Source: Planctomycetota bacterium
GTDB taxonomy: Bacteria > Planctomycetota > Planctomycetia > Pirellulales > UBA1268
Reading direction: 5' to 3'
DNA length: 64,000 bases
NCBI GenBank assembly: GCA_018970785.1
Contig: JAGWVR010000001.1
Span: 1-64,000 of the forward strand
In this document: piece after piece, positions 5,192 to 16,613 of the stretch
How positions within the stretch are numbered: the first letter of the stretch is position 1
How the letters are laid out: every line of letters starts with the position of its first letter
Program-made: the position numbers and the translations under genes
Notes under the pieces: generated by a model
Databases searched by the model: none
Seen by the model: only the letters and a program-made list of their open reading frames with translations
What the model was told of the DNA's origin: nothing

Positions 5192-5866
5192 ATGGAATGG
5201 CTGCAGCCGGTCCTCGACCTGTTCTTCAACCTCGACGAGCGGCTCCACACGGTCATCGAGCAGTGGGGACCGTGGACGCTTGTCCTCCTGTTCGCGATCG
5301 TGTTCTGCGAGACCGGACTGGTCGTGACGCCGTTCCTGCCCGGTGATTCGCTGCTGTTCGCCGCGGGGGCGATGGCGGCGTTGTTCCCCGACCTGCTCGG
5401 CCTGCCGGCACTGCTGACCACGCTCACCGTGGCCGCGATCCTCGGCGACACGCTCAACTACGCCCTCGGGAGGACCGTCGGGCCGCGCGCCTTCGCCCTC
5501 GACACGTGGTTCCTCCGCCACCACAACCTCGTCAAGGCACAGGAGTTCTACGAGCGCCACGGGGGCAAGACGATCGTCCTGGCGAGGTTCGTGCCGATCG
5601 TCCGCACCTTCGCCCCGTTCGTGGCCGGAATCGGGAGAATGAACTACGCGCAGTTCCTGTTCTACAACGTCGTCGGCGGGATCGCATGGGTGCTGATCTG
5701 CACGCTCGCAGGTTATTTCTTCGGCAACATCCCCGTGGTCAAGAAGAACTTCGAGCTCGTCGTCGTGGGCATCGTCCTCCTCTCGGTCCTGCCGGTGGCC
5801 TGGGAATGGTGGCGTCACTCCCGATCGACCGCGGCTGGGTCGTCTTCGGATCGCCGGTCGGGTTGA
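5192..5866 (+). CDS. DedA-family inner-membrane protein
   Basis: This 224-residue polytopic membrane protein belongs to the DedA/SNARE-associated family. Members act in the cytoplasmic membrane in lipid flipping (undecaprenyl phosphate or phospholipid recycling) and envelope homeostasis. Visible hallmarks are CETGLVVTPFLPGDSLLF near residues 40-57, the GDTLNYALGR segment, and the conserved ARFVPIVRTFAPFVAGIGRM stretch with the essential arginines. The C-terminal helix (VVVGIVLLSVLPVAWEWW) is followed by a short basic tail. The open frame extends far upstream without homology, so the ATG at 5192, just before the first amphipathic helix, is chosen. The substrate cannot be told from sequence. 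Confidence 0.92.
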   Translation: MEWLQPVLDLFFNLDERLHTVIEQWGPWTLVLLFAIVFCETGLVVTPFLPGDSLLFAAGAMAALFPDLLGLPALLTTLTVAAILGDTLNYALGRTVGPRAFALDTWFLRHHNLVKAQEFYERHGGKTIVLARFVPIVRTFAPFVAGIGRMNYAQFLFYNVVGGIAWVLICTLAGYFFGNIPVVKKNFELVVVGIVLLSVLPVAWEWWRHSRSTAAGSSSDRRSG

Positions 5867-5884
5867 CCGGCCCCCGAAATGCCG

Positions 5885-5923
5885 CGGATCCCCCGGCCCC
5901 GGGGGGTGGGGCCGAGGGATCCG
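5885..5923. terminator. Strong hairpin between convergent genes
   Basis: CGGATCCC and GGGATCCG form an outer 8-bp stem and GGCCCC/GGGGCC an inner 6-bp stem. The hairpin sits between the DedA stop and the convergent coiled-coil gene. There is no T-tract on either side, so it may act as a bidirectional terminator or simply protect 3' ends. Confidence 0.5.
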
Positions 5924-5976
5924 GTCGCCAGCCCTGCGGCGGCCGTCCCGGGGGGCGGGCACGGCCGCGGCGGCGA

Positions 5977-7095
5977 TCACTGCGGCACGTCGCCCGGGGA
6001 GCGGGCGACGTCGACCACGGGCGTCGGGCTGGCGGGAGCCGGGGCGGCGGCCACCGGCCGCGGCGCGGCCTCCACGGCGCGGGCGGCACGCGTGAACTCG
6101 ATGACCGGGAGGATCGTCTCCGCCGCCCGATCGACCGCCGGCCGCAGCAGCATGACGTCGACGATCATGTGCTGGATGTCGCCGAGCGTGCCCGTCGCCT
6201 CCGTCAATCCCGCGCCCAACTCCCGCAGCCGCTCGAGGGCCAGAGCCGCCTCGCCGACCCGGACGGCACCGGCGACGACGGCCTCCTTCAGCCGCGTCAG
6301 CTCGGCGAGCCGCTCCGCGGCCGGGGCCGTTCCGGCGCCGGCGGCCTCGACCGCGTCGATCAGCCCTTCGATCCGGTCGACCGCGCCGTGGGCAGCGGCG
6401 ATCCCGGCCTGCTGACCGGTGATCCGCGTCCCGAGCCGCTCCGTCTCCACCGCCACCTCGGTGGCCCGGGCGACCGCGGGGCCGGCCCCGGCGAGCCGGT
6501 CGCACAGTCCGGCGACGTCGGCGAGCACGGGGGAAGCATCGACGAGCCGCTCCAGACCCGTGGTCAGGTCACCGTGGACACGCTCCACCACCAGCAGCCC
6601 TTCGCGGGCCTCCTCGGCACGCCGCCGTGTCACTTCGGCCCGGGCGACAAGGCCGTCGGCCGCCTCGAGGGCCGCCGTGACGCCGTCGAGCGCCCGCCCC
6701 GTGGCGACGATTCCGGCGTGCACCCCGCCGATCCGCTCGACGGCCGCGGCGGCCGCCGCCACCTTCTCGGTCTGGGCGACGAGGCGCTCGCCGAGCGTGC
6801 GGAAGCGGTCGAGCGCCGCCTCGGCATCGCCCAGCTGGCCCCCCTGGATCTGCAGCTGCGCGAGAAGCCGGTTGGCGGTGTTCACGCTCCCGGTCGTCCC
6901 GGCCAGTTCGGTGACCGTCCGCGACAGCTGCCCGACCTGCCGCTCCAATGCGGCCACCTGCTGGGCCGCCGGGCGGATGAGCACCAGCTGGGCGGTGAGC
7001 AGCACCGCCGCGCCGCCGGCGACAAACGCCTTCCAATCGAACCGCTGGCCTCCCTTCGGGGCAGCAACCATCGTCTGCTCGGTACCGATCGCCAT
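5977..7095 (-). CDS. Membrane-anchored coiled-coil protein of unknown function
   Basis: This 372-residue protein begins at the ATG at 7095, which has an AAAGGAG ribosome site seven bases upstream; the longer frame lacks this. One transmembrane helix lies near residues 25-45 (AFVAGGAAVLLTAQLVLI). A long Ala/Glu/Leu-rich region follows, with heptad-like patterning and repeated motifs of the type ERLxxLxxxVxxA, predicted as coiled coil. A Pro/Ala-rich tail (APRPVAAAPAPASP) ends the protein. The layout resembles membrane-tethered methyl-accepting-like or EzrA-like scaffolds, but no signalling domain is visible and I do not assign a function. It is divergent from tRNA-Arg and convergent with the DedA gene. 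Confidence 0.8.
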   Translation of the reverse strand: MAIGTEQTMVAAPKGGQRFDWKAFVAGGAAVLLTAQLVLIRPAAQQVAALERQVGQLSRTVTELAGTTGSVNTANRLLAQLQIQGGQLGDAEAALDRFRTLGERLVAQTEKVAAAAAAVERIGGVHAGIVATGRALDGVTAALEAADGLVARAEVTRRRAEEAREGLLVVERVHGDLTTGLERLVDASPVLADVAGLCDRLAGAGPAVARATEVAVETERLGTRITGQQAGIAAAHGAVDRIEGLIDAVEAAGAGTAPAAERLAELTRLKEAVVAGAVRVGEAALALERLRELGAGLTEATGTLGDIQHMIVDVMLLRPAVDRAAETILPVIEFTRAARAVEAAPRPVAAAPAPASPTPVVDVARSPGDVPQ

Positions 7096-7287
7096 GGCGG
7101 GAACTCCTTTGCCTGCCGGAAGCTGAGACCGGACGACCGTCGAGCCTTCGCCGATCGTCACCTGCTTCTTGGATCGGCAGGTCACGCCGACCGGTAGAGT
7201 CGCCGCCCGACCACGAACGGTTGGTGCGGCGGAACCGGTTGTGCCGTGGTCGGCAGGCACGCTGCAGGGGACCGGCGCGGCGGCGGA

Positions 7288-7293
7288 TATACT
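7288..7293 (+). promoter_or_regulatory. Probable -10 element of tRNA-Arg
   Basis: TATACT ends 10 bases before the mature tRNA 5' end and is followed by cgcggcc. The placement fits a promoter giving a very short tRNA leader. No clear -35 consensus is visible. Confidence 0.5.
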
Positions 7294-7303
7294 CGCGGCC
7301 GTC

Positions 7304-7377
<74 letters not shown>

Positions 7378-7467
7378 GTGAGGCGGCACCGCGCGTTTCT
7401 GACCGCGGAACATCGGTCCACGCCCGTGTCGGCGGCATCGGCGGCCGGTCACGCCGTCCACGGCAGG

Positions 7468-9408
7468 CTAGCCGTGGAGGCGGGACAGCATGTCAGGACG
7501 CTTGCCGAGATGCCGTTTGCCTCGCGACGAGCGCGTCGTCCAGAACCCCTTGAGTGGCCCCCTGATCGCCTTCATCTGCCGGGCGAGCCGGTCGTGTGAC
7601 GTGACGCGCTTGCCGATCGTGTAGCGGACGAAGCCGTCCTGGTTGATGACGATCGTGCACCCGCCGATCAGGTCGACCAATCCATCCGCGGTCGTCGCGG
7701 TGCAGGATTGCGTCACCTCGGCAATCGTGTCGAAGAGGATCCGTCCGTCGGGGGCGACACGCCGGGCGATGCGGATCGAGTCGATGATCGCCGGCGCGAC
7801 CTGCGTGAAGCCCGTCGGCGGGTTGTCGTCGACGGGGAGGAGCATGAACAGGTGGGCACGTTCCGGGTCCGTCACGAAACGCCCCAGCGCGTCGGCTTGC
7901 CGGGTGAGCTCGTTCTCGTCGGCGGGGCGACCGGGATCCCCGTCGAAACGCAGGTCGCCGAATGCCAACCCCGGGACCTTCAAGCGCGCGTCGGGTGGCG
8001 TGTCCGGCGGCTGCCAGCGGAGCGCGTCCTCGGTCATGAACGGGACGCCGGCGGGGAAGATCCGGCGGCGCCGAAAGGAACGCATCAAGGCCTCCCGGTA
8101 GCCCCACTTGTCGACCGGCTCGACCTCGAGGTCGGCCGTGACCAGGGCCCGGAGGTACTCCCCGAGCAGCATGTCCACCGGCGGGCAGTAGTCGATCGCC
8201 CGGATGCACATCGTGAGGAACTGCCCCGCCACGGCGCACGTCTCGCGGCCGATGGCCGCGAGGAGGGCGTCGGAGAGCGGCTTCGTGCCGAGGTCCTGCG
8301 GATCGACCCCGGCGATGGCCGTGAGCCGCGCCGTCTTCCTCCGGGCGATCGTCACGAACGCCTCGAACACCGCCGAGACCAGGACCGTTCCCAGGGCATG
8401 GGGCTCGGCGGTCGGGTCGTAGCACACCGGCGCGCCGCGGCCGTCCGGCGGCTCGTCCGAGTCGAAGGCGTGGATCCCCTCGACGTCGATCCCCGAGCGG
8501 AGCGCCCGTCTGACCGGGGCCGCACCGTCGTCGCTCGTCCGCGCGTAGCCGAACTCGCGGGCGATGTCCGTGAGCAGCGATCCGTGCCCGACCACACCGC
8601 GCGACCGCCGCAGTGACTGCTCGACGACGCCGGGATAGGTGAAGTGGAGGAACAGGGCGACGAGATCGGCGAATCCTTCGTGGAACGCCAGGACGTCGGG
8701 ATTGGTCGGCTCCTGGAAATTCGCGCGGAGGCCGTCGAGGAGGGCGTGGGTCGTCTCGTGGGCGATGATGTCGTGCGACAGCACGGTGAACACCAATCCC
8801 CCGGGAATCGTGAACCCTGCCGGTCTGGCTCCGGCCCGGAACCAACCGAAAGCCAGATCGCCGGAATCGCGGCTGTAGTGGGCGTTCCGCTCCTCGAACG
8901 CGAACGGACGGATCTTCAGCCGGACGGTGCGGTGGCGGTCGGTGGTGGTCGGCGTGCCGGGCGGGATCGCCCAGGCGATGTCGCGTCCCAGAGCGCGGCG
9001 AAAGGCCGCGTAGGTGAGACTGCAGACGGCGTAGGCCATCTGCAGGTGGAACCGGGGATCGGACGGCGACGGGGGCACGCCGTCGGTGACGAGCAGCTCC
9101 GGGTCGTCGAGGTCGAGTGGCTTGGTCACCGCGGCGAGCGGCTCCGGCGGCTGACCGGCAACCACCTCGAACAGTTGCCCCTTCGGCCCCGGATCGAGCT
9201 CTTCCCACGGGACCTCGACCTTCGTCACGCCCCCCTCCCGATCCGACACCGAGGGATCGAGGGTGTAGATCCACAACTGGCGCGTCACCGGCTTGCGCTG
9301 CTCGCGCCGCCAGCGATACGCCCGGGTCGACGCCTGCCGGATCACGCGCTCGCTGATCTGGTAGCGGACGGTCGCCGCCCGCTTCCGCGTTCTCGACGCT
9401 TTCGCCAT
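7468..9408 (-). CDS. Gluzincin-type zinc metallopeptidase without signal peptide
   Basis: This 646-residue protein carries HETTH at residues 217-221 and a downstream glutamate in HEGFAD (Glu244), about 25 residues on. That spacing matches the third zinc ligand of thermolysin-like (M4, gluzincin) peptidases. The N-terminus is strongly basic (MAKASRTRKRAATVRYQ) rather than a signal peptide, and no transmembrane helix is seen. The C-terminal third (ADALGRFVTDPERAH onward) looks like a separate domain that I do not recognise. The ATG at 9408 is preferred over the GTG immediately before it because GAGGAG lies seven bases upstream. It follows the M43 gene by 19 bases and is probably co-transcribed, so the two may act together. 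A cytoplasmic role or non-classical export would both fit. Confidence 0.8.
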   Translation of the reverse strand: MAKASRTRKRAATVRYQISERVIRQASTRAYRWRREQRKPVTRQLWIYTLDPSVSDREGGVTKVEVPWEELDPGPKGQLFEVVAGQPPEPLAAVTKPLDLDDPELLVTDGVPPSPSDPRFHLQMAYAVCSLTYAAFRRALGRDIAWAIPPGTPTTTDRHRTVRLKIRPFAFEERNAHYSRDSGDLAFGWFRAGARPAGFTIPGGLVFTVLSHDIIAHETTHALLDGLRANFQEPTNPDVLAFHEGFADLVALFLHFTYPGVVEQSLRRSRGVVGHGSLLTDIAREFGYARTSDDGAAPVRRALRSGIDVEGIHAFDSDEPPDGRGAPVCYDPTAEPHALGTVLVSAVFEAFVTIARRKTARLTAIAGVDPQDLGTKPLSDALLAAIGRETCAVAGQFLTMCIRAIDYCPPVDMLLGEYLRALVTADLEVEPVDKWGYREALMRSFRRRRIFPAGVPFMTEDALRWQPPDTPPDARLKVPGLAFGDLRFDGDPGRPADENELTRQADALGRFVTDPERAHLFMLLPVDDNPPTGFTQVAPAIIDSIRIARRVAPDGRILFDTIAEVTQSCTATTADGLVDLIGGCTIVINQDGFVRYTIGKRVTSHDRLARQMKAIRGPLKGFWTTRSSRGKRHLGKRPDMLSRLHG

Positions 9409-9427
9409 CACGCCGCTCCTCGGAGGC

Positions 9428-10363
9428 TCAGCGCTTGCGCCGGGCCGCGGCCGCCGTGGCCATCAGGCCCGGGCGCCCCGTCTCCAGGGCCGTCCGCATC
9501 CGCAGCACCTGCTGGGCGGTGAACATGAACATCGCCCGGTCGTCGACATAGTCCATGTAGTTGACGAACATGTCGCCGGCCGGGCCGTTGTTGCAGGTCA
9601 CCGACGGCCAGATCGGCGTACCGAAGTTGGGCCCCTCGCAGTTCGGGGTGTCGGCGACCCCGTCGCCGCCGCTGCAATCGGGTGTGTCGCCCCAGATGTG
9701 GCGGAGGTTGAAATAGTGCCCCACCTCGTGGGTCGCCGTGCGGCCGAGGTTGAACGGCGCCTGCGCCGTCCCGACGGTGCCGAACGCCGAGACGTTGATC
9801 ACGACGCCGTCGGTCGCCGGCGGGCCACCGGGAAACTGGGCGTAGCCGAGGACGCCGTCCCGCAGGGCGCAGACCCACAGGTTGAGACGCGAGCGCGTGT
9901 CGATCGGCGCGATTCCTCCCGTCGCCGCGTTCTTCACACCGTCGTCGGTACCGAAGCCGCGGACGGTGGTCGGCGTCCGCGTCACCTCGACCAGACGGAA
10001 GGAAATCCGGGCGTCGGTGACCAGGCCTGCCCACGGCGCGGGCACCTTGGAGCGATCGGTGTTGGTGGCCCGGAAATCACGGTTGAGCACGTCGAGCTGG
10101 CTGGCGATCTGGTCATCGCCGACGTTCTCGGCGTCGGTCGCATAGACGACGTGGACGACGGTGTCGACCGTGACGATCGGCACCTGGGCCAGATCGACGG
10201 GGGCCTGGCGCTGCTTGGCGGTCGCCCCCTCGAGTTTCATGAGATTCATGCGGAACGCCGGGTATTTCTCCAGCAGCAGCATGTGGGCCGCCATCGCCCC
10301 ACAGACACGCCGGGGCGGCACCCGCCCGCGCGCCGTGACGGTCTTCTTCGTGCGCTTCGCCAT
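9428..10363 (-). CDS. M43 pappalysin-like zinc metallopeptidase
   Basis: This 311-residue protein has the metzincin signature HEVGHYFNLRH (ligands His212, His216, His222; catalytic Glu213) followed by IWG, and a Met-turn NYMDY near residue 270. Together these identify the M43B pappalysin family. GGAGG lies seven bases before the ATG. Most M43 proteases are exported, yet the N-terminus here is MAKRTKKTVTARGRVPPRR, basic and without a hydrophobic core. Cys21 in the RRVCGAM context might act as a cysteine switch that blocks the zinc until processing; this is inference. The C-terminus ends in a basic ARRKR. Both the N-terminal MAK-basic style and the operon position link it to the downstream gluzincin. 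Confidence 0.88.
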   Translation of the reverse strand: MAKRTKKTVTARGRVPPRRVCGAMAAHMLLLEKYPAFRMNLMKLEGATAKQRQAPVDLAQVPIVTVDTVVHVVYATDAENVGDDQIASQLDVLNRDFRATNTDRSKVPAPWAGLVTDARISFRLVEVTRTPTTVRGFGTDDGVKNAATGGIAPIDTRSRLNLWVCALRDGVLGYAQFPGGPPATDGVVINVSAFGTVGTAQAPFNLGRTATHEVGHYFNLRHIWGDTPDCSGGDGVADTPNCEGPNFGTPIWPSVTCNNGPAGDMFVNYMDYVDDRAMFMFTAQQVLRMRTALETGRPGLMATAAAARRKR

Positions 10364-10507
10364 CGCCGTTCCTCCCTTTCGCCCCCGAGGTCACGCCCCA
10401 TGCAGCGACCGATCCGGCTGCCCACTGTGATCGGCGTGACAGACAGCCGCAACCGGACACGGCCGCAAAAAGAATTTGCCGGCCGGGTGCGCGAAGAACG
10501 TGGGCGC

Positions 10508-10548
10508 AAAAAAACCGCCGGCCCCCGGGAATCACCCCGGAGGCCGGC
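10508..10548 (-). terminator. Rho-independent terminator, minus strand
   Basis: On the minus strand a GC-rich inverted repeat (GCCGGCCTCCGGGG with TCCCGGGGGCCGGC, loop of about 4) is followed by GG and seven Ts. It lies about 108 bases after the stop of the tiny ORF at 10657 and upstream of the M43 gene. Confidence 0.85.
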
Positions 10549-10656
10549 AGCCGTGGGACCGGCACGCCACGCGTGCGACCCGGCCGTGCGTTGGCCACCG
10601 GCCGACCGCGTGTCGTGCGTTGGGCTGCGTCAACGGCGAGCCCGTCGACTGGCCGC

Positions 10657-10695
10657 TTACCGGCGCAGCCCCTTTGTACAGTCACATTGCGTCAC
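10657..10695 (-). CDS. Possible 12-residue peptide or leader ORF
   Basis: A GTG at 10695 opens the frame MTQCDCTKGLRR-stop. It is preceded by AAGGAGGTGAT, a near-perfect complement to the 16S 3' end, with GGAGG seven bases from the start codon. A terminator follows about 108 bases later. The excellent ribosome site argues for real translation; the short product argues for a leader peptide, a tiny protein with a CxC motif, or coincidence. A longer GTG frame starts 10 bases later but runs through the terminator and lacks homology, so I prefer the short one. No family is recognised. Confidence 0.35.
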   Translation of the reverse strand: MTQCDCTKGLRR

Positions 10696-10962
10696 TGAAT
10701 CACCTCCTTCTGCTACGAGGACCCCAGCCGTCGCAGCCTCTGCACTGGCCGCCGCCGGGCGATTCACCCCCCGGCCGTCACCGGGGACGCTTCGTCCGCC
10801 GTCTCCCCCGGCGGACCGGAAGGCGACGGAAAGACGGGCCGGAAAGGAGTACGGCTTTCCGCCGCACCGACCCTCCGGCCATCCACACTGTAGCCCTTTC
10901 CGAACCGGCTGGACAGCTTTCGTCTCGGCAGCCCCGATCGTGATCGCCGCCCCGGCGCCGGC

Positions 10963-11322
10963 TCACTTCTCGGCACTGATCCCGAGTTGTCCGAGCAGCG
11001 CCTTCGCCTTCGCCTTGATGTCGGCCCCGGGTTTCTGGATTTCTGCCAACCCCTTCTCGAGGATCGCGGCCTTCTCCGCACTGACCCCTTTCACCGTCGC
11101 GACCATCTGCTCGAAGCCGGTGACCTCACTCCCGAGCGCCTGCCCATTGGCATACGCGCGCAGGGTGTTGGCCACCTGAACCATCGGATCGACGTTGATC
11201 GTGATCACTTTCGGTTTGACCGTCGCCTGACTGCATCCCGCCAGCCCGCCGGCCAGCATCGCCAGCCCGATACCCCCCGCGATCACGGGCAGGCGCACGT
11301 CAAACCCCGATCGACCGGCCAT
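10963..11322 (-). CDS. Small lipoprotein, unknown function
   Basis: This 119-residue protein has a lipoprotein signal: a hydrophobic core (IAGGIGLAMLAGG) and lipobox LAGC with Cys30. The mature part is short and helical (QVANTLRAYANGQ and AEKAAILEKGLAEIQ) and ends in LLGQLGISAEK. The ATG at 11322 is chosen because it starts directly at the signal peptide; upstream in-frame codons belong to the intergenic DNA. It follows a DUF1559 gene by about 100 bases on the same strand. Planctomycetes often pair small lipoproteins with DUF1559 genes, but the role is unknown. Confidence 0.8.
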   Translation of the reverse strand: MAGRSGFDVRLPVIAGGIGLAMLAGGLAGCSQATVKPKVITINVDPMVQVANTLRAYANGQALGSEVTGFEQMVATVKGVSAEKAAILEKGLAEIQKPGADIKAKAKALLGQLGISAEK

Positions 11323-11423
11323 GGAAAGCTCGCTTTCAGTGAGGTGAATACGGTCCGGACGGCCGCTTCCGACCGGCCGGGGCCACTCGGACATCGCCCC
11401 GGCGGTGCCGGGCCGCCCACTCG

Positions 11424-12458
<1,035 letters not shown>

Positions 12459-14232: not shown

Positions 14233-15438
14233 TCAGCGCGACAGCGCCGGCAGGGCGAGGGCTCCGGCGTAGGCCGTGAGCAGGCCGTCGAGTGAAAGGT
14301 TGAACGACGTCGACAGACTGTCTTCGACGGTCGCTCCCTCCTTGATCCCACGCACGAACCGTTTGAACCGGCGCCGGTCACGCCCCGCCATGAAGCGCAC
14401 CAGCCCAGACGCGATCCCGTACTGATCCCCCGCGATGTTCGCGGCGGTGAAGAAGTCCTTCCCGACCGTCCCGGTGGTCGCCATCAGGGCGCGGGCCTTG
14501 GCTTCCTTGGCGGCCACCTGCCGGCAGGCGGGGACCACCTGGCAGGCGATCCACTCGGCGATCCCCTCGTTGAGCCAATTCGGCAGCTTCACCGGCGACA
14601 GCCAGCGGTGGCTGAATCCGTGGCTCGTCTCGTGGACGATCATGTGCTCGAAGACGAGCTGATCGGGGCCCTTGTGGCAGGTCACGAAGACGCGCCCGTC
14701 GGGCGACTGGTGACAGGCCCCGTGGACCCCCGCCGGAATCTCCCCCGTGACGCGCCTGCCGAAGGCGTGGAAGTCTTCCTCGCGCTGGAAGGCGATGACG
14801 AGGCATTTTCCGAGCCACACCGGCTCCCCGGCGGGGATGTCGTAGAGGTCGCACAGCAGGTCGTGCATCCGATCGAGACTCGCGACCACCCCGGCGACCT
14901 CACCGGCCGGGATGTCGGTCGCGAAGATGAACTCGTGCGTCGTCTCGACGCGCATCCCGGGAAAGTCGCGCTGCACGAGGGCGACGAGTTGCTCGAGCTT
15001 TTGCACCTCCGCGGCGTGGTCGGCGGCGGTCTTCGCCGGCCACGGCTCGATGCCGTTGGCCCGCATCCGTGCGGCGCTGGCCGCTGCCTCCTTGCCACCG
15101 GCGTCGCGGCCGCGCGCCCCACCCGGCCGCAGTACGTCGCCGGTCGGCCCGGTGTCGTAGACCACCTCCCGGTCGATGACGATCCGGGTCACCCCCGACA
15201 GCTGCACTGTCCGTGGCGGTGCCGCCGGATCGGTGAGCAGGCGGAGGGCGGTCACCTCGCCGCGCTGCCGCGTCACCCCGTCGAGAACCGGACGCACGAG
15301 CCGGCGGCCGCCCGTGAGCTCAACGGCGTCAAGCTGCCGGCCGACGCTCCTCTGCAGGCGTTGGAACAGTCCGTCCGACGCCACCGGCCTGTCGGCCCGC
15401 GCCACGACTGCCACAGCCGTCCCGGCGACGAGCAGCAA
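14233..15438 (-). CDS. DUF1570 putative secreted metallopeptidase
   Basis: This protein of about 401 residues belongs to the planctomycete DUF1570 family. A signal-peptide-like start (LLVAGTAVAVVARA) is followed by about 100 residues without homology, then the domain. It contains VHETSHGFSH (HExxH zinc motif) and NEGIAEWIA, whose glutamate is a likely third zinc ligand, giving a gluzincin-like site. No ATG is available at the right place. A TTG at 15438 with TGAGGGG about eight bases upstream is the best start, and that ribosome site overlaps the stop of the preceding gene, suggesting translational coupling. The substrate is unknown. The tail ends ALALPALSR. Confidence 0.82.
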   Translation of the reverse strand: MLLVAGTAVAVVARADRPVASDGLFQRLQRSVGRQLDAVELTGGRRLVRPVLDGVTRQRGEVTALRLLTDPAAPPRTVQLSGVTRIVIDREVVYDTGPTGDVLRPGGARGRDAGGKEAAASAARMRANGIEPWPAKTAADHAAEVQKLEQLVALVQRDFPGMRVETTHEFIFATDIPAGEVAGVVASLDRMHDLLCDLYDIPAGEPVWLGKCLVIAFQREEDFHAFGRRVTGEIPAGVHGACHQSPDGRVFVTCHKGPDQLVFEHMIVHETSHGFSHRWLSPVKLPNWLNEGIAEWIACQVVPACRQVAAKEAKARALMATTGTVGKDFFTAANIAGDQYGIASGLVRFMAGRDRRRFKRFVRGIKEGATVEDSLSTSFNLSLDGLLTAYAGALALPALSR

Positions 15439-15449
15439 CGCCGCGCCCC

Positions 15450-16613
15450 TCAGGGCGCTGCCCCGGCGCGGCGCAGTTGGGTGCTGGAGAGATCGCAACG
15501 AAACTCCTCCTCGGTGACGAACCGAGCGACCGTCCGGAGGGGGGCAGGCGTGTCGGGCCGGTCCGCGGATACGAAGGCTCCGTCCTGGAGCCGACCGAAA
15601 ACGATCAGTCCCGCCACACTCGCCGCGATCCGCCGCACCGCGTCGTCGGCGGCGGCAGCCGACCCGCCGTAGTATCGCCGATCCCAGAGCCGCGTGAAGG
15701 TGTCGGCGCCGAGGATGAAAAACGCCCGGGGAAACAGCGCCGTCTTCTCGACGAACGTCGCCGCGCGCGTGAGCCACAGGGTCGCGCCCACGAACCGTGC
15801 CTGCCGTGCGGCGATCTCGACATAGTCGAGCGCGGGTTTGTCGACGTTGTCGATCGACAGTTCGTATTCGACCTCCCGCCCGACGATCCGGGCCGCCACC
15901 GTCGCCATCCCCCGATGGCCGTCGTGGAGCGGATCGAACGAGCCGGGGAACAGCAACCTTCCCGGCGTGCCCTCGGGAGCGGCGCCGTCGACGGCCGACA
16001 CGCCCCGCCGGTCTCCGGCCAGAAGCGCCCGCCACGGCGCCGGCGCCACGACGCGCTGCACGACGATCTCCTCCTCGGGTCGCAGCGGTGGCCGCCCGGG
16101 GAGCGGCGACGGCGTACCGCACTCCGCCGCGATCGCGGCGAGGAGGAGCCACGCCGCCACATCCTCTTCCGCGGCCCGTGTCCGGGGCCCCTTGGAGAGC
16201 GTGAGGGAGTGGACCGCCGTGGCGGCGAGCGACTGGACCGCGACAACCGCCCGGTGGTCGCCCTGCTTGGGACGCACCGTTGCGAGACTCGCGGTCACGG
16301 CAGCGCCGAGGGCCCCGCCGGCGGGGGCGCCGAGAGCCCGGGCCCGGGCCCACGCCGCCATCGCCAGCCGCCGCGACGCGCGCGACGAGCAGTAGCTTTC
16401 CTGCTTTCCCCCCAGCAGCCGGTCCACGGCCTCGCGCGCGTGGGGTACGAGCCCCTCGAGCAGCACCCGACTGGCCCCTGGCGTCCCTGCCAGCGCTGCC
16501 ACGGCGCCCGCTCCACCGCCGGCTGCCGTGGCCACCAGGCTTGCCCCGTCTGCTGCCGTCCGGTCGATGACGGTGGCGGCGGAGGCGGCGAGAAGGTCGC
16601 GGCTGAGATCCAC
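15450..16613 (-). CDS. CinA-like domain fused to NMN-adenylyltransferase-like domain
   Basis: This 387-residue two-domain protein begins with about 155 residues resembling the CinA C-terminal nicotinamide-nucleotide amidase fold (TAAGGGAGAVAALAGTPGAS, then TASLATVRPKQGDHRA). The serine of the CinA ESCTGG motif is absent at the equivalent place (ATAAGGG), so activity is doubtful. From residue 220 a nucleotidyltransferase of the NadD/cytidylyltransferase superfamily follows. It has GSFDPLHDGH (HxGH-type motif at 230-233), ILGADTFTRLWD, and the C-terminal LSSTQLR that matches the SSTxxR motif. The combination suggests pyridine-nucleotide salvage: deamidation of NMN and re-adenylylation. From memory, some plant and algal proteins have a similar fusion. 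It overlaps no gene and is closely followed by the DUF1570 gene. Confidence 0.78.
   Translation of the reverse strand: MDLSRDLLAASAATVIDRTAADGASLVATAAGGGAGAVAALAGTPGASRVLLEGLVPHAREAVDRLLGGKQESYCSSRASRRLAMAAWARARALGAPAGGALGAAVTASLATVRPKQGDHRAVVAVQSLAATAVHSLTLSKGPRTRAAEEDVAAWLLLAAIAAECGTPSPLPGRPPLRPEEEIVVQRVVAPAPWRALLAGDRRGVSAVDGAAPEGTPGRLLFPGSFDPLHDGHRGMATVAARIVGREVEYELSIDNVDKPALDYVEIAARQARFVGATLWLTRAATFVEKTALFPRAFFILGADTFTRLWDRRYYGGSAAAADDAVRRIAASVAGLIVFGRLQDGAFVSADRPDTPAPLRTVARFVTEEEFRCDLSSTQLRRAGAAP

Follow-up and report, generated by a model that had tools for sequence, protein, structure and literature searches.

Deamidases of the PncC/CinA type and nucleotidyltransferases of the NadD and NMNAT types are among the closest described systems to the protein analyzed here. 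In A. tumefaciens CinA, catalysis requires S31 and K63, the S31A and K63A variants show no detectable activity, and the phosphate is held by the backbone of G46 and S48 together with Y58 and R145 (PMC5384747); in T. thermophilus CinA (TtCinA), Lys301 is the proposed base (PMC4246079). CinA is occasionally fused to other domains, and the work that says so sets such fusions aside (PMC3855486). In plants, the FAD synthetase FADS1 carries a fused CinA-type (COG1058) pyrophosphatase that is inactivated, and for which its authors propose non-catalytic FAD binding (PMC9678776). Yeast Pof1 is described as an additional NMN adenylyltransferase of weak activity that shares both ATP motifs with the family considered below (PMC13191266, PMC3282682); a text search of these two papers found no mention of CinA. 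Among phages, NadV is present in 22% of the medium and 33% of the jumbo genomes, and a search of the main text of the survey that reports these rates found neither CinA nor PncC; the survey names NadM and NadR (PMC9503650). A Nampt-like enzyme, Namat of the NARP1 system, yields NAD+ without NMN (PMC12774641). In the parts of the literature on such fusions and on phage NAD salvage that are covered here, we recognized no description of the fusion reported below; databases may list it under general names.

The window, that is, the whole stretch of DNA analyzed, comprises 64,000 nucleotides (positions 1 to 64,000 of contig JAGWVR010000001.1) of a Planctomycetota genome bin that is 69% complete. 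The original prediction placed in it a fusion of a CinA-type and a NadD-type domain, and an ORF of 387 amino acids occupies exactly the predicted position:

15450 to 16613, reverse strand: fusion gene, CinA-like plus NadD/NMNAT-like, 387 amino acids (ORF including the stop codon, candidate GTG start)
16110 to 16613, reverse strand: N-terminal domain of the CinA/PncC fold, residues 1-168 (AlphaFold (AF2) model, structure match, hhalign)
15972 to 16109, reverse strand: linker, residues 169-214, variable in length and sequence (alignments)
15453 to 15971, reverse strand: C-terminal nucleotidyltransferase domain of the NadD/NMNAT type, residues 215-387 (Pfam, structure match, hhalign)

On the predicted structure, both halves of this protein are genuine, one with the CinA fold and the other with the NadD/NMNAT fold, as had been proposed. 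The AF2 model, built from 63 sequences (the window protein and 62 homologous loci), has a pLDDT of 94.6 and a pTM of 0.92. Residues 1-168 align with A. tumefaciens CinA (2a9s) with a Z score of 20.1 (2.6 Å, 159 of 167 residues, 18% identity) and with the deamidase domain of TtCinA (4ct8) with a Z score of 18.8 (2.0 Å); hhalign against the PncC set gives E values of 5e-13 (global) and 3e-11 (local). Residues 217-386 align with NadD (4rpi, Z 11.1) and with human NMNAT (1gzu, Z 9.7), and hhalign matches this domain to NadD with E = 6e-13. In the window protein, the Pfam CTP_transf_like domain scores above its cut-off (26.7 vs 21 bits, residues 221-382) and the CinA domain (PF02464) below it (17.5 vs 23.5 bits, residues 14-82); several relatives exceed the PF02464 cut-off, and 28 of 33 family members match this domain at E ≤ 0.1, the best with E = 1.3e-8. 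The subthreshold CinA half of the window protein might speak for a chance juxtaposition, a mis-assembly, or a decayed gene, but such an origin is hardly conceivable: it is refuted by the open ORF, the conservation across three phyla and in phages, and the invariant motifs described below.

The fusion family is matched in 56 of 59 related genomes, in two-domain form in 54 of them; two genomes (G037 and G045) have only C-domain matches, and in G007 and G015, the two-domain gene is truncated where the contig stops. When the phylum was sampled, 10 of 148 genomes had a match at E 1e-10 (six two-domain, four C-domain only), and therefore the family is concentrated in the order to which the window belongs. 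Beyond it, among the best 80 of 254 relatives retrieved in a scan of genome contigs, homologs come from Planctomycetota, Gammaproteobacteria (including SAR86 and Woeseia), and Chloroflexota; a search of plasmids with the fusion gave no match. The phylum labels are strongly clustered in a tree of 105 proteins (3 changes, vs a mean of 29 after shuffling), in which some branches are long; the viral forms fall outside the cellular groups or on a branch of their own. A plant protein, At2g01220, may have the same architecture; we found no literature under that name.

Comparison of the gene order around 93 homologs and the window (two of 95 homologous loci had no called target) revealed no conserved bacterial operon. 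The neighbors are lineage-specific only, so that none of them points to the function of the fusion, and apart from nuo-like genes in Chloroflexota, no NAD-pathway genes were found around the bacterial genes examined. In the family of the window, the fusion adjoins an oxidoreductase gene (neighbor names were assigned partly by eye) and a peptidase-MA-like gene:

14233 to 15438, reverse strand: peptidase-MA-like gene, next downstream of the fusion (Pfam, 26.4 bits, below the cut-off of 32.4)

In the window, 11 bases separate this gene from the fusion gene, and in seven listed relatives it overlaps the end of the fusion gene by 4 to 22 bases; it is not thought to take part in the function of the fusion. 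The neighbors in SAR86 include genes for glucokinase and an SGLT-type protein, and in some Gammaproteobacteria, an alpha/beta hydrolase gene ends a few bases from the start of the fusion (both named partly by eye). Several Chloroflexota loci (L103, L112, L121, L135, L136, and L138) carry the fusion immediately 5' of the nuo-like (NADH dehydrogenase) genes, as named by eye.

The residues of the N-terminal domain were counted over 130 homologs (133 aligned rows minus L058, L060, and L138). The positions that matter for the comparison with characterized CinA proteins map to the window as follows:

16521 to 16523, reverse strand: A31, where A. tumefaciens CinA has its catalytic Ser31 (alignment)
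16470 to 16478, reverse strand: G46-A47-S48, NMN-phosphate contacts, kept (alignment)
16425 to 16427, reverse strand: V63, where A. tumefaciens CinA has the general base Lys63 (TtCinA Lys301, paired by alignment)
16251 to 16268, reverse strand: conserved basic loop K116-x-G118-x-H120-R121, absent from the aligned PncC proteins
16176 to 16178, reverse strand: R146, probably equivalent to the phosphate-binding Arg145/Arg377

In fold, in length, and in the phosphate-binding Gly/Ser and Arg, the domain resembles the PncC proteins and C-terminal CinA domains (2a9s, 4ct8, E. coli PncC). Unlike these, the fusion family lacks the Ser/Lys dyad; the ESxTGG motif is replaced by (T/S/A)GGG(S/T/A), which in the window protein reads A-A-G-G-G-A (residues 30-35), and the basic KxGxHR loop and the fused nucleotidyltransferase are additional features of the family. 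The alteration of the catalytic serine region noted in the original prediction extends to the entire family. Position 31 is occupied by Thr in 77, Ser in 28, and Ala in 25 homologs, and position 63 is never Lys (0 of 130; Leu 55, Val 37, Met 24, Ile 6, Thr 5, Phe 3). The phosphate contacts are retained, with G46 in all 130 homologs, S48 in 127, and Y58 in 114 (the genus of the window has His there), and the basic loop is strongly conserved (K116 in 122, G118 in 130, H120 in 124, and R121 in 119 of 130). R146, present in 130 of 130 homologs, is the probable equivalent of Arg145/Arg377, as judged from the ends of the structural alignment and provided that the last helix is aligned without gaps. 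R144, which is favored by the profile alignment, was also considered as the phosphate-binding Arg and was dropped because it is not kept in the viral forms and because of the ends of the structural alignment. Among 35 distinct viral N-domains (42 rows before identical ones were collapsed), none has Lys63 or Ser31, whereas S48 is kept in 35, Y58 in 34, and R146 in 34.

Because the Ser/Lys dyad is lost and the NMN-phosphate residues are kept, the N-terminal domain is probably unable to deamidate NMN through the established mechanism and may nonetheless have retained NMN binding, which lends indirect support to the suggestion in the original prediction that the first domain only binds NMN. The proposal that NMN deamidation and adenylylation are joined in one polypeptide is not supported, the known deamidating residues being absent (A31, V63). 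It is distinctly unlikely that the domain instead relies on a different set of catalytic residues for NMN deamidation (the K116/H120/R121 loop and T107, for instance), in which case a single chain would convert NMN to NaMN and on to NaAD. T107, the equivalent of Thr340 of TtCinA, is indeed kept in 116 of 130 homologs, but nucleophile and base are both replaced, and in A. tumefaciens CinA, replacement of either residue suffices to abolish detectable activity (PMC5384747).

The distribution of intact PncC bears on the same question. Among the 59 related genomes, an intact PncC, of a single domain and retaining the Ser, Lys, Tyr, and Arg residues, was found only in G037, G043, and G045, that is, in none of the 54 genomes with the full fusion vs three of the five without it (Fisher p = 3e-4, with relatedness ignored). 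This mutual exclusion fits a direct NMN adenylyltransferase because the two would be alternative routes of NMN recycling, and a deamidase of a new type in the N-domain would be equally compatible with it. Two of the three genomes with intact PncC carry a C-domain-only protein, as if PncC had taken the place of the N-domain, and 53 of the 59 genomes encode a canonical NadD that scores above the cut-off; both observations would suit the new deamidase as well. The presence of canonical NadD rules out the fusion as a replacement for NadD, another explanation that we considered; no canonical NadD was found in the bin of the window (G000), and one is present in G001, of the same genus. Two-domain COG1058-CinA paralogs of related genomes (L148, L346-L364) were also inspected, and the Ser/Lys deamidase dyad is lost in all 20; for this reason, the ordinary CinA seems to be inactivated in the lineage of the window, too.

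The C-terminal domain shares with NadD and human-type NMNAT the fold and the HxGH, GxD, and SSTxxR motifs. The first and the last of these, which had been described as intact, are so in the window protein and are nearly invariant among the homologs:

15915 to 15926, reverse strand: HxGH motif, HDGH, residues 230-233 (alignment)
15471 to 15488, reverse strand: SSTxxR motif, SSTQLR, residues 376-381 (alignment)

H230 and H233 are conserved in 130 of 130 homologs, as are K259, K290, D304, and R308; S376 is found in 125, S377 in 128, and R381 in 126. Judging from these motifs, the domain looks active as an adenylyltransferase. It differs from NadD in its own signatures, ELSxxNVDKPxLD and DPRYYGG, and in the nicotinamide site. 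There, a Trp of NadD stacks on the nicotinamide; the family has Tyr (108 of 130) or Phe (22 of 130) at this position. The score of the window protein with the NadD equivalog model of NCBIfam, TIGR00482, falls so far short (19 vs a cut-off of 112.45 bits) that the fusion is not filed as NadD proper.

From the folds, the states of the motifs, their conservation, the exclusion of intact PncC, and the phage context that follows, all computed here, we consider it probable, with some reserve, that the fusion is a direct NMN adenylyltransferase joined to a catalytically dead CinA/PncC domain that has kept its pocket for the phosphate of NMN. The C-terminal domain would convert NMN and ATP into NAD+ and PPi, and its main substrate would be NMN rather than NaMN. 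The N-terminal domain would most likely hold or sense NMN, in a regulatory or retaining capacity, and would probably dimerize by analogy with CinA. NMN released by NAD-dependent DNA ligase or obtained by salvage could thus be adenylylated directly, without deamidation.

It is very unlikely that the substrate is not a pyridine nucleotide at all, such that another phosphate ester would be adenylylated or cytidylylated and the N-domain would serve as a sugar-phosphate pocket. The breadth of the HIGH superfamily, the lack of any bacterial neighbor that names a pathway, and the replacement of the nicotinamide-stacking Trp leave room for this alternative; however, both halves derive from enzymes acting on the same metabolite, and the phage copies lie within Nampt operons.

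The family was detected in 46 viral contigs by a scan with the family alignment. Profile typing assigned 29 of these to a one-ORF fusion, 13 to two neighboring genes (overlapping in nine cases and spaced by 10 to 332 bases in four), and four to the C-domain only. An enzyme of the NAPRTase family (nicotinamide/nicotinate phosphoribosyltransferase) is encoded in 31 of the 46 contigs; in 20 of them, no more than 3 kb separates it from the family gene, and all 20 pairs are on the same strand. Random placement yields 4.2 such neighbors on average and at most 12 in 10,000 draws; among the contigs of at least 50 kb, the enzyme is near in 12 of 23 vs 1.4 expected. At least five pairs of contigs have identical coordinates and are near-duplicates (L167/L168, L179/L180, L193/L194, L197/L199, and L201/L202), which leaves about 15 independent adjacent cases. 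No NAPRTase was found in 32 control viral contigs, only five of which exceed 50 kb. Given that the published rates of NadV already reach 22-33%, co-presence in 31 of 46 contigs is a modest excess, and hence the phage argument rests on closeness and strand.

The NAMPT_N domain was identified in six of eight nearby phage partners typed, and NF006629 is the best model for nine of nine typed. This model we take to stand for Nampt. Individual typed partners are accordingly candidate Nampt enzymes, each of which may alternatively be a Namat. In the reverse search, starting from Nampt, both domains of the family were found within 10 kb in two of the best 80 (of 563) relatives, and the N-domain alone in two more of the same best 80, a pair that represents the same phage twice (100% identity over the domain).

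Two phage loci show the arrangement most clearly. On a 172-kb contig (L164), a Nudix gene (5792-6364), a Nampt gene (6398-7924), and the fusion (7926-9023) follow each other with gaps of 33 and 1 bases and would constitute a compact NAD salvage set. On a 190-kb contig (L272), a gene for a NadM-type NMN adenylyltransferase fused to Nudix (8647-9750; 268 bits to the best NCBIfam model, below its cut-off of 397) precedes a Nampt gene (9974-11491) and a stand-alone CinA-like gene (about 11421-12029), after which comes a thymidylate-synthase-like gene (named by eye); no C-domain of the fusion type lies within the 10-kb flanks. The model of the stand-alone CinA-like protein has a pLDDT of 82.8 and matches 2a9s with a Z score of 17.0. 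The CinA-like domain thus accompanies Nampt in two settings: where the adenylyltransferase is the C-domain of the family, in the same chain or a second one, and, in this one phage, where it is NadM. The pairing of the fusion with Nampt resembles the known phage pairing of NadM-Nudix (NatV type) with NadV/Nampt, in that a probable NMN adenylyltransferase would act next to Nampt in NAD salvage, and the separate Nudix gene of L164 makes its set equal to NadM-Nudix plus Nampt. Unlike NadM-Nudix, the fusion has a different nucleotidyltransferase according to the family models and a CinA-like domain instead of the fused Nudix; Pfam found no Nudix domain in the window protein. The model of the stand-alone protein also resembles the methanogen guanylylpyridinol-binding protein HcgF (3wva; Z 10.4, 3.6 Å, 131 residues), a match that ranks under CinA and above the remaining ones.

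These contexts argue further against a new deamidase in the N-domain: with Nampt as the usual partner and NadE in only five of the 46 viral contigs, deamidation would be a detour, and on L272, the N-domain is found beside NadM, an NMN enzyme. We had also considered a Preiss-Handler reading with NadE, prompted by the four phage records examined first, of which three have NadE and two an NAPRTase; the larger set, with its five NadE and 31 NAPRTase contigs, weakened it. Some records do point that way. LR756511.1, a C-domain-only contig whose family gene adjoins genes that resemble thymidylate synthase and DHFR by eye, encodes a nicotinate phosphoribosyltransferase above the cut-off along with NadE; the phage record G205 has NadE and a nicotinate phosphoribosyltransferase just below the cut-off; and on LR745208.1, a contig with the fusion, NadE is present and no NAPRTase was matched. 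Some family members may therefore use NaMN, and the first two of these records weaken the case for NMN as the substrate. It is nonetheless unlikely that the C-terminal domain is mainly a NaMN-using variant of NadD with a merely structural or regulatory N-domain: NadD structures are the best fold matches and the two records, both from jumbo phages, would fit, but most typed phage partners are Nampt-like, and the canonical NadD of the bacterial relatives would make another NaMN-using enzyme superfluous.

The direct adenylylation of NMN that we favor can be extended, tentatively and with considerable doubt, to a distinct class of NMN adenylyltransferase that consists of a nucleotidyltransferase and a dead PncC, fused or encoded by two genes, and that would join NadM and NadR in phage NAD+ reconstitution with Nampt. 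The dead PncC would either hold NMN or block deamidation through mixed dimers with the host PncC, sparing NMN for NAD+; under this extension it would have a job of its own, and it is indeed also found by itself next to Nampt and NadM. A precedent is the plant FADS1 fusion, likewise a cofactor-making adenylyltransferase with an inactivated hydrolase domain (PMC9678776), which differs, as described there, in involving the COG1058 rather than the PncC domain of CinA and another cofactor.

If the preferred assignment as an NMN adenylyltransferase is correct, a widespread architecture of this enzyme is to be added to the NAD metabolism of Planctomycetota, SAR86-type Gammaproteobacteria, and Chloroflexota, and the recycling of NMN by bacteria without a working PncC would be explained. 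Phage NAD+ salvage would gain an enzyme type that goes unmentioned in the main text of the virus survey (PMC9503650). The N-terminal domain is a natural, evolutionarily fixed candidate for an NMN-binding pseudoenzyme, and the fusion together with its phage context suggests a little-known route of NAD recycling.

In a library of viral structures, the phage protein A0A6J5RR79 (360 amino acids) matches the entire fusion model with E = 1.4e-21, and part of the model is matched by a Marseillevirus protein, A0A481YR20 (318 amino acids), annotated as a competence-damaged protein. Finally, at locus L002 (556-3168), the CinA-like and nucleotidyltransferase domains are split into two genes that flank a small third gene, and a gene for a T4-type RNA ligase comes next.
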